Shown here piece after piece: positions 33,546 to 44,467 of a DNA stretch of 64,000 bases. The notes beneath the pieces were generated by a model. It had not been told where the DNA came from, made no database searches, and was given only the letters and a program-made list of their open reading frames with translations. The position numbers were made by a program, and so were the translations under genes. The number at the start of each line of letters is the position of its first letter. Within the stretch, counting starts at the first letter, position 1. Origin of the DNA: Comamonadaceae bacterium (GTDB taxonomy: Bacteria > Pseudomonadota > Gammaproteobacteria > Burkholderiales > Burkholderiaceae_C); contig JAIYAR010000006.1 in the NCBI GenBank assembly GCA_027488985.1, positions 115,750 through 179,749 on the forward strand, written 5' to 3'.

Positions 33546-34691
33546 ATGCCTTCCCAACCCCCTGTTGCCGCTACCCCCATGGCTTTTGCCCGAGCCATGG
33601 CAGAGGCGTATGTGCGGTACGGGAAAGACCCATCCCATGCACTGGAGATGGCGCAGATTACGCCAAGTACTTTGCAGAAAACGAACGCCCGCATCACGGC
33701 TTGGCAGATGGAGCGCCTCTCAGAGACGGCCATGCGCGAGCTGGACGACGAAGCCCTGGGCTGGTTCAGCCGTCGCTTGCCCTGGGGCAGCTACGGCATG
33801 CTGGCCCGCGCCTCGATTTCCGCGCCCACTTTGTACGTCGCACTAAGCCGCTGGTGCCGCCACCACGGCTTGATCGCACCCGACATCACACTCACCCTCA
33901 GCACAGCCGGTGACACCGCCAGCATCACGCTCACCGAAAACGCGACACCACCAGCCCACGGGCATGGGGCTTTTGCGCAGGTCAAGGAGGAGCCCGCAAA
34001 GCGGGCGGGGGACACGGAGCAAAAACACCATGGTCTTGGGCTGCCCCGGACGCCCCAACCCAACCGGATCCCGGAACCATTCCGCGAGTTCTGCATGGTC
34101 TCCGTGCTGTGCAATGTGCTGGGCGTTGCCTGCTGGCTGATCGACTCGCGCATCACCCTGCTGCAGGCGGACTTCCCCTTTGAACCACCACCCCACGCAG
34201 ATGCCTATGCGGTTCTGTTTCCGGGCCCCACGCGCTTCCAGCAAGCGCGGGCCGCTATTGTTTTTGATGCGGAGTACCTGAAGCTCCCCCTGCGGCGGGA
34301 CGAAAAATCTTTACAGCAAATGCTGCAAAACGCCTTGCCACTCACCGTGCACCAGTACCGGCGCGACCGCTTGCTGGTGCAGCAGGTGCGCCAGCTGCTG
34401 AGCAACCAGCCCCAAGACACCCACAGTGCAGAGGCACTGGCCGCCCTGCTGAACGTATCCCCCCGCACCTTGCACCGCCAACTCAAGGAAGAAGGCGCCG
34501 CACTGCAAGCCCTCAAAGACGAGGTGCGCCACAGCAAGGCCAGCGACCTATTGCTGCGCAGCCACCGACCCATCAAACAGGTGGCCGAGGCCGCAGGGTT
34601 TCAGAACGAAAAGAGCTTTATCCGCGCCTTCAAAACATGGTCCGGACAGACGCCGGCCGAGTTCCGGCGCAGCGCCACACCCGGAACCTGA
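33546..34691 (+). CDS. AraC-family transcriptional regulator with in-frame family 3 repeat
   Basis: A regulator of 381 residues with an N-terminal Arabinose_bd-type ligand domain (LSETAMRELDDEALGWFSRRLPWGSYGML, then FCMVSVLCNVLGVACWLIDSRITL) and a C-terminal AraC DNA-binding domain (SAEALAALLNVSPRTLHRQLKEEG and IKQVAEAAGFQNEKSFIRAFKTWSGQTPAEFRR), as in OruR/ArgR-like regulators. The ATG at 33546 is preferred to an earlier in-frame one. Residues about 144-159 ([16 protein letters not shown]) and their flanks come from a 92-bp palindromic element shared with thiG; it sits in a loop between the two parts of the ligand domain, where relatives have only a few residues. The divergent liuB gene is the likely target; this is inferred from position only. 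Confidence 0.88.
   Translation: MPSQPPVAATPMAFARAMAEAYVRYGKDPSHALEMAQITPSTLQKTNARITAWQMERLSETAMRELDDEALGWFSRRLPWGSYGMLARASISAPTLYVALSRWCRHHGLIAPDITLTLSTAGDTASITLTENATPPAHGHGAFAQVKEEPAKRAGDTEQKHHGLGLPRTPQPNRIPEPFREFCMVSVLCNVLGVACWLIDSRITLLQADFPFEPPPHADAYAVLFPGPTRFQQARAAIVFDAEYLKLPLRRDEKSLQQMLQNALPLTVHQYRRDRLLVQQVRQLLSNQPQDTHSAEALAALLNVSPRTLHRQLKEEGAALQALKDEVRHSKASDLLLRSHRPIKQVAEAAGFQNEKSFIRAFKTWSGQTPAEFRRSATPGT
33952..34043 (+). repeat. Family 3 palindromic element in AraC regulator gene
   Basis: The 47-bp core (33975-34021) is identical to that in thiG and contains the stem CCCGC-AAA-GCGGG. Outer arms 33952-33976 and 34019-34043 pair at 20 of 25 positions but are unrelated to the thiG arms. 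Encodes [16 protein letters not shown]. Confidence 0.92.
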
Positions 34692-43498: not shown

Positions 43499-44467
43499 TC
43501 ACAACAGGATGGGGTGACCTGCGACCGGCGTAGACGCCACCGCCATGTCCTGGCGGGGCATGAGGCCGGCTTCGTAGGCCAAGCGGCCGGACGCTATGCC
43601 GAGCTTGAACGCACGCGCCATGCGCACCGGGTCCACGGCATACGCCACCGCGCTGTTGAGCAGCACCGCGTCCAGCCCCAGTTCCATGGCCTGCACCGCA
43701 TCTGCCGGTGAGCCGATGCCGGCATCGACGATGAGTGGCACACCCGGCAGGCGGGCCCGCAGGGTGCGCAGCGCACCGGGGTTGACCAGCCCCTGGCCCG
43801 AACCTATGGGCGCGCCCCAGGGCATGAGGATGTTGCAGCCGGCGTCCAGCAGGCGCTGGCAGCTCACCAGGTCGTCCATGCAATACGGAAAAACTTCGAA
43901 GCCGGCTTTCACCAGCTGGGTAGCGGCGGTCAGCAGCTCGAACGGGTCCGGCTGCAGGGTGTGGGAGTCGCCCACGACTTCGAGCTTGATCCAAGTAGTG
44001 TCGAACAACTCGCGCGCCATGTGGGCCAGGGTGATGGCTTCGCGGGCGGTGTAGCAGCCGGCGGTGTTGGGGAGCAGGTGGGCACCCGTGGCTTGGATGA
44101 GGGCGAAGAAGTCGCCGGCCTCTCCCCCGTGAGCGAGTTGGCGGCGCAGGCCCATGGTGACGACTTGGGCGCCGGAGGCTTGGATGGCGTCTTGCAGGAT
44201 TTCGGGGGAGGGGTAGGCTGCGGTGCCCAGGAAAAAGCGGCTGGTCAATGTGCGGCCGCCGATGTGCCATTCGTTGGCTTCGGCGGCATGACTTGGCGGC
44301 AGCGTGTTCTGCTCCGTGTCCCCCGCCCGCTTTGCGGGCTCCTCCTTGACCTGCGCAGAACACACTGCCGCCAAGTCACTTTGGTTGGTCGTTAAACGCT
44401 CGAGTCCATCCATCTCTTCCGAGGCGATACTTTGCTTAACCGCTTCGTCGTTTATGTGTGCAGTCAT
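43499..44467 (-). CDS. thiG: Thiazole synthase ThiG with N-terminal repeat-derived extension
   Basis: ThiG forms the thiazole ring from deoxyxylulose phosphate, dehydroglycine and ThiS thiocarboxylate. The TIM barrel begins at [23 protein letters not shown]; the Schiff-base Lys is in [11 protein letters not shown], and [35 protein letters not shown] and [15 protein letters not shown] form the phosphate site. Normal length is about 265; this frame has 322 residues. The extra 66 N-terminal residues contain [16 protein letters not shown] encoded by a family 3 element (44289-44378). The ATG at 44467 lies three bases after the thiS stop, which supports translation of the extension, although a non-ATG start near the barrel cannot be excluded. 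Confidence 0.92.
44289..44378 (-). repeat. Family 3 palindromic element in thiG
   Basis: The core at 44310-44356 is identical over 47 bp to the AraC-regulator copy. Outer arms 44289-44312 and 44355-44378 pair at 23 of 24 positions. Encodes [16 protein letters not shown] in the N-terminal extension of ThiG. Confidence 0.93.

Follow-up and report, generated by a model that had tools for sequence, protein, structure and literature searches.

A chromosomal hairpin repeat of Burkholderiales that lies in frame within thiG, mutL and other genes

Why is a run of 47 bp, identical to the letter, read in the same frame in thiG and in an unrelated AraC-type regulator gene? The question arises in the window, the whole 64,000-nucleotide stretch analysed here (genome G000, contig C19, positions 115750-179749). 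An earlier note on this DNA had reported both the identity of the two cores and their positions, which we verified (Table 1). It had also claimed one frame and one peptide for the two genes, and both cores indeed lie in codon phase 1 and encode the same 16 residues. A 26-nt piece of the core, allowing up to 3 mismatches, has exactly two matches in the window and none in 100 shuffles.

The hairpin and its two copies in the window

Each core is flanked by inverted-repeat arms of about 24 bp, whose sequence differs between the two loci and whose complementarity is kept. These locus-specific arms make a hairpin of about 90 nt the real unit. The thiG copy folded as DNA has a z of -6.2; an RNA fold of the regulator copy gave the weaker z of -1.49. 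The element had been described as palindromic and peptide-coding; that it is interspersed and lies in frame in unrelated genes holds, but the unit of about 90 nt with its covarying arms had been overlooked.

Table 1. Positions of the hairpin copies and their host genes in the window
Feature	Coordinates	Strand	Remarks
Whole hairpin in thiG (arms and core)	44289..44378	-	90 bp, in frame
thiG copy, 5' arm (coding strand), locus-specific	44355..44378	-	24 nt, 96% complementary to 44289-44312
thiG copy, conserved 47-bp core	44310..44356	-	Internal loop AGGTCAAGGAGGAG / GGGGGACACG round inner hairpin CCCGC-AAA-GCGGG
thiG copy, 3' arm (coding strand)	44289..44312	-	Arm complementarity
thiG host gene, 322 aa	43499..44467	-	ThiG domain from residue 69
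Whole hairpin in AraC-type regulator	33952..34043	+	Core match, arms, fold
Regulator 47-bp core, same letters and frame as thiG core	33975..34021	+	Sequence identity
Regulator copy, 5' arm	33952..33976	+	25 nt, 80% complementary to 34019-34043
Regulator copy, 3' arm	34019..34043	+	Arm complementarity
AraC-family regulator host gene, 381 aa	33546..34691	+	Insert from residue 144-145; empty slot in G034, G067

The thiG copy was said to lie in an N-terminal extension of 66 residues. Homology to solved ThiG structures begins at residue 66-69, in agreement with the start of the Pfam domain, so an extension of about 66 residues is real. No ATG, GTG or TTG occurs between the core and the ThiG domain in any of the 11 ThiG loci (G000 and 10 congeners), which makes it almost certain that the core is translated; a CTG occurs there in 8 of the 11. 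In the regulator, the insert begins just past the best Pfam Arabinose_bd stretch (residues 26-136).

The rest of the genome holds further copies. Fourteen sites in G000 match a 44-bp core with up to 3 mismatches, and a covariance model, R1, built from 50 copies found by pattern, finds 27 copies. The alignment of the 50 copies has 31 predicted pairs, 27 of which are changed on both sides and still paired in at least one copy. The constant part consists of AGGTNAAGGAGGAG and GGGGGACACG on opposite sides of a short inner hairpin; the inner hairpin and the outer arms vary in sequence and keep their pairing. The result is a conserved tip of about 42 nt, in which a purine-rich internal loop encloses a small inner hairpin, set on a stem of about 24 bp. 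The arms of the G000 copies are unlike each other, with a median arm identity of 0.43. At Burkholderiales loci outside the genus or family, the constant part is reduced to AAGGAGGAG...GGGGGACA, and neighbouring pairs covary (AGGT..ACACG, AAGT..ACATG, AAAT..ACATT). At loci L368-L373, L376 and L377 (family f13), the element has relatives that share its loop and whose variable inner stems are longer.

Copies in G000 are single or in inverted pairs. An inverted pair, with cores about 100-180 bp apart, is present in all 13 multi-copy loci listed, which were picked for holding at least two copies; many other copies are single. At one locus, L026, two copies lie on the same strand, 140 bp from each other.

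R1 matched 59 of 120 relatives (E <= 1e-5), 58 of the 72 inside the G000 genus and one outside it. Copy counts per relative are lower bounds, because at most 33 candidates were scored per genome. In an order-wide sample, with 10 candidates scored per genome, 17 of 379 genomes from three families matched at E <= 1e-6, and G000 is one of the 17. Named genomes scanned with an exact pattern gave at least 119 stretches; among the 80 matches listed are Rhodoferax, Hydrogenophaga, Curvibacter, Aquabacterium, Methylibium, Ramlibacter, Rhizobacter and Janthinobacterium, as well as an Oxalobacteraceae bacterium and many MAGs. The element is effectively chromosomal: it had no match in the plasmid and phage sequences searched and occurred in one of the viral contigs searched; a plasmid or phage origin was rejected for want of a match. 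As part of the explanation that we favour overall, it is probably a member of a Burkholderiales family of chromosomal hairpin repeats.

Insertion into genes, inheritance and orientation

The earlier note had proposed searching the genome and its relatives and counting the copies inside genes. Eight of the 27 G000 copies lie inside seven genes (thiG, the araC-type gene, mpl, mutL, putA, hrpA with two copies, and dnaE2). Host identity was confirmed by Pfam or NCBIfam in each case, and edge or short-ORF overlaps (L226, L227, L228, L173, L188, L190) were left out. Seven of the eight are sense and share one frame; the DnaE2 copy is antisense. Among confirmed slots, ten fall in arm-frame class 1 (ThiG, AraC, Mpl, MutL, PutA, three in HrpA, CobB and MutS), three in class 2 (DnaE2, a second PutA slot, and a hybrid histidine kinase in which Pfam confirms the part downstream of the insert only) and none in class 0. 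This count leaves out L045, L048, L082, L112, L121 and L255 (no Pfam domain) and L013 (a short ORF). The probability that at least 10 of 13 share one frame, at one third each, is 0.0016 (for 7 of 8 in G000 alone, 0.0026), to be read with the loci not being a random draw.

An arginine-rich peptide of 14 residues would result if the core were read in sense class 0. All seven confirmed antisense class-1 copies have an A at the variable base, where C or T would create a stop in their frame. Over 293 copies this base is C in 148, A in 130, T in 13 and G in 2. Automatic ORF calls on the 293 copies gave 67 sense (63 in phase 1), 18 antisense and 208 unassigned, in a set enriched for fetched orthologues that gives no genome-wide rate.

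The earlier note had also suggested aligning the hosts with relatives that lack the element, and slots of this kind were found in AraC, HrpA, Mpl and PutA. The AraC slot is empty in G034 and G067, and the HrpA-1 and HrpA-2 slots are without the core in G067, G022 and G026. The HrpA-3 slot is empty in G000 and seven relatives and filled in G026, G034, G015 and one named genome. In PutA, the element is absent from the slot in G083, G084, G020, G030, G068, G022, G067 and G026, and present in G000, G091, G001, G007 and one named genome. Among the best 30 of 114 genomes matching Mpl, 19 have the element, in sense orientation in 17 and inverted in 2, and the other 11 lack it; Mpl of G064 is element-free and has the short loop SARLGQGKTFVIE. 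The empty slots show that the element was inserted into genes. That all orthologues might carry the segment by vertical descent had been named as the alternative; since orthologues without the element exist, it is not universal by descent.

Many copies have been passed on within a clade since. Twelve near congeners were queried: the ThiG copy is present in all 10 with a ThiG match, the AraC copy in 10 of 12 (one inverted), the HrpA-1 and HrpA-2 copies in 9 of 12, and the MutL copy in 10 (broken by a contig end in G020, not found in G030). With copies common to most orthologues of near congeners, inheritance inside the clade is largely vertical. The PutA copy of G000 is almost letter-identical in G091 and G001, yet it is absent from G083 and G084, which are closer to G000 in their AraC and Y1 proteins. 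By this pattern, transfer or loss occurs too.

Neither a target-site duplication nor a motif for insertion could be resolved at the slots. The possibility that empty sites are core-like targets was considered and set aside: the best 15-nt windows matched at 7 to 11 positions, which is not convincing. In the mpl slot of L283, L277, L281 and L282, other GC-rich hairpin-like inserts are found where the element is absent, and the slot in G094 holds LPAARGSLPPEGADSP twice; with such inserts, the mpl loop looks as if several repeat families land in it. Element-free PutA slots (L332, L333, L334, L353) have a short GCTACT...ATAGC, perhaps another small inverted repeat.

At four slots (Mpl, AraC, HrpA-3 and DnaE2), the core occurs in either orientation with the same arm frame. 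The opposite orientation is held by G074 and G003 in Mpl, by G026 in AraC, and by L113 as against the rest in DnaE2; in HrpA-3, G034 and G015 differ from G026 and one named genome. The inverted cores encode an unrelated 14-residue peptide in the same slots. In-place inversion between the arms would be the simplest reading of both orientations, and independent insertion is a possible source of them.

Nucleotide conservation and the strand that folds

Is it the peptide that is conserved, or the nucleotides that encode it? To avoid a core pattern that in mpl favours conserved cores, we recounted codons in 61 sense copies from six slots (Mpl 17, AraC 10, MutL 11, PutA 4, HrpA-1 10, HrpA-2 9), each located by its protein flanks only, at 11 fixed codon positions, without the ThiG slot (11 loci), three inverted copies and one HrpA-2 copy with an altered tip (L340). 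The 671 codon cells comprise 642 consensus codons, 26 amino-acid changes and 3 synonymous changes, so that among 645 unchanged residues a synonymous codon appears in 3 only. The GTN codon and two inner-loop codons are variable. A pattern-based set of 67 copies (19 Mpl, 11 ThiG, 10/11 MutL, 9/10 AraC and 18 HrpA, at least 2 of them inverted) required the core pattern, so the copies that had changed most are absent from it. In mpl, 120 pairs among the 16 of 17 sense orthologues that fit the core pattern are 68% identical at flanking third positions (360 nt) and 97% identical over 25 core nt.

Some of the amino-acid changes follow the fold. An E-to-G and a G-to-E change, seven residues apart, are found together in five copies; between them they turn A.G into G.A on the two sides of the loop. 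Among the 293 copies, 7 have this swap and a single copy has just one of its two sides changed, while 14 have a G-C to A-T covariation in the loop. The variant is seen in mutL (L323, L320) and hrpA (L183, L338, L340, L342), scattered among orthologues as if cores had been converted. The arms covary as well. Watson-Crick pairing in the Mpl slot is 89%, versus 67% with right arms shuffled among species; the corresponding values are 90 versus 69% for AraC, 91 versus 74% for ThiG, 92 versus 79% for MutL and, with different slots pooled, 87 versus 69% for HrpA. DnaE2 and PutA are uninformative here because their arms barely vary.

With 3 synonymous against 26 amino-acid changes, the codon data argue for constraint or homogenisation at the nucleotide level, of core and pairing alike, and against constraint on the peptide; conversion between copies could also yield the conserved core. 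The conserved peptide looks like a by-product of a nucleotide core that is kept with almost no synonymous change. A functional charged linker selected in ThiG, MutL, HrpA and other proteins is therefore very improbable. It would account for the single frame of all seven sense G000 copies, but it is disfavoured by the codon counts, by the coupling of the two changes above, which follows the demand of a base pair, and by the inverted cores.

The pairs also point to one folded strand. Over 293 copies and 7032 cells, G.U occurs 543 times versus 78 for A.C, in a pool that includes copies found with R1, which itself favours G.U. The 247 copies from loci found without R1 give 488 versus 67, and the 14 G000 copies found by the core pattern alone 23 versus 2 (p = 2e-5); shared ancestry inflates the pooled counts. 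This excess shows the strand carrying AGGTNAAGGAGGAG to be the one that folds. Antisense copies inside genes keep the same bias: verified ones without DnaE2 (n = 8, a small sample, some of it obtained through R1) have 11 G.U versus 2 A.C (p = 0.02), the five DnaE2 copies listed have one to three G.U each and zero A.C, and an automatic antisense set, with unconfirmed genes included, has 36 versus 2. Selection on the mRNA would reverse the bias in these copies, so the few antisense copies favour, as the molecule that folds, either single-stranded DNA or an RNA with the sequence of the element strand.

A hairpin acting in transcripts (riboswitch-like, protein-binding or mRNA-stabilising), with RNA selection keeping its loop and stem, is thus unlikely. 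The excess of G.U and the invariant internal loop with non-canonical covariation do resemble structured RNA, seven of the eight confirmed G000 in-gene copies are sense, and transcription of a BRE locus is reported in Bordetella (Hot et al., PMC3110155). However, in the antisense in-gene copies the bias lies on the strand opposite to the mRNA, and both orientations occupy the same slot. Nor does a known RNA family fit: in an Rfam scan of 16 of 44 loci, none reached the gathering score on the element, where mir-1421 (E 0.066) and mir-4891 (E 0.0014) fell below theirs. One congener contig carries two SAH riboswitches (Rfam RF01057; L018:259-349 and 2323-2402) about 2.1 kb apart.

The element could instead be a dead selfish relic, its arms kept complementary by quasi-palindrome template switching and its cores alike since they are recent or converted between copies. 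PutA of G034, in which the tip is gone in frame and arm remnants are left, has the look of such a relic, and the core variants (QVKGETAQRSEDTEQ and the 15-residue form) are spread over the orthologues in a way that conversion would explain. We nevertheless think this rather unlikely. Template switching alone would not be expected to give a 7:1 excess of G.U over A.C, and the slots are common to species whose third positions around them have diverged, so the insertions are not recent.

Mobility and comparison with known repeats

Whole hairpins, arms included, were dispersed in at least one relative. In G006, arm similarity is 80% or more in 44 of 210 copy pairs, and the best 12 of these 44 have unrelated flanks; in G000, 1 of 351 pairs reaches 80%. 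G000 also has a single Y1 transposase-like gene (PF01797, with REP_Tyr_transpos below the cut-off). Its product, a Y1/HUH protein with the HUH motif DHFHLL (L217:1153-1842 on the minus strand, L220, L218), occurs once per genome in most congeners and looks like a domesticated RAYT; a lipoprotein gene near it is the same in G000, G007 and G006. A role as the mobiliser is not supported for this protein: a Y1 match is found in 52 of the 58 congeners that have the element and in 13 of the 14 that lack it (Fisher p = 1.0), and 40 Y1 loci hold no R1 match. Co-occurrence and these 40 loci thus tied no mobilising enzyme to the element.

Our preferred explanation, which we hold somewhat more probable than its rivals together, is a mobile, strand-specific hairpin that is REP-like as DNA and RPE-like in genes. 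The folded strand would be single-stranded DNA, such as that of the lagging strand, and its internal loop would be recognised by a factor of HUH/Y1 type or similar. By analogy with TnpA-REP and bulged REP hairpins, this factor may both disperse and conserve the hairpin. Inside genes, the hairpin would survive in loops, linkers and terminal extensions, in reading frames that stay open and encode a mostly hydrophilic peptide, and the 30-odd residues would ride along with ThiG, MutL, Mpl and others without being what selection maintains. A bolder version is possible and is put forward tentatively: the element may be a living single-strand recognition hairpin, in which a specific non-canonical loop fold takes precedence over codon choice in genes of several species (mutL, hrpA, mpl, putA and thiG among them), the arms evolve by compensation, the core flips between the arms so that a slot alternates between two unrelated peptides, and the factor still works on every copy, sense or antisense.

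The earlier note knew of no description of such a family in Comamonadaceae, which is doubtful, since the Beta-proteobacterial repeat element (BRE; about 90 bp, Hot et al. 2011, PMC3110155) occurs 4 times in Rhodoferax ferrireducens T118 and 29 times in Polaromonas JS666. Like our element, BRE is about 90 bp long and chromosomal, occurs in Comamonadaceae including Rhodoferax, has some copies entirely within coding sequences, and has partial conserved forms of about 40-60 bp and possible past mobility (PMC3110155). BRE is tandem and VNTR-like in Bordetella, whereas the copies here are single or in inverted pairs; in-frame coding, covarying arms and strand bias are features of our element that the available part of the BRE description does not mention (PMC3110155). 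Our element may be BRE, a likeness drawn from the description rather than from sequence. No other name for the family was found in the literature searched, beyond whose reach most subscription journals lie.

As DNA, the element resembles REPs, strand-specific imperfect hairpins that often form inverted doublets and that in group 2 need an internal bulge (PMC8266576, PMC3116915). Judged by its sequence bias, it too would be a strand-specific hairpin with an internal irregularity, and it shares the inverted doublets. Unlike REPs as these sources describe them, it has no GTAG tag, with GGAG adjoining the inner hairpin instead, no adjacent RAYT at the Y1 loci, and 27 copies in G000, 8 of them in genes, rather than hundreds. 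DnaE2 is a REP host in other bacteria as well, and repair genes recur as REP hosts elsewhere (PMC3733652). The terminal inverted repeats of TIRYT elements offer a further likeness, with a GGGGWSAS motif (here GGGGACAC in the core), dimers and self-complementary tracts, but no tyrosine transposase is flanked by our element at the Y1 loci examined (PMC3733652). In Nematomorpha mitochondria, palindromes are also kept within translated genes; there both arms encode conserved protein, whereas the insert here is foreign to its protein (PMC6649704). The functional parallel suggested earlier, RPE of Rickettsia, holds well: RPE and its Wolbachia counterparts are palindromic repeats in frame in unrelated housekeeping genes (PMC3733652, PMC2996958), and our element has this placement as well as orthologues without the insert. 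With RPE taken from its description only, our element differs in its taxon, its locus-specific arms, its near-frozen nucleotide core and its either orientation per slot.

In these Rhodoferax-like housekeeping genes, a DNA hairpin, and not the protein, seems to dictate the sequence. Annotators are warned that unrelated proteins can have a peptide in common, to the letter, without having any function in common. How palindromes enter genes and what reads them can now be tested, as can the reason for the repeated presence of repair genes (mutL, mutS, dnaE2) among the hosts. The best-known protein-coding palindromes are those of the intracellular Rickettsia and Wolbachia, where tests are hard. The free-living Burkholderiales provide a case with many species, empty and filled slots and both orientations, in which selection on nucleotides and on protein can be separated.
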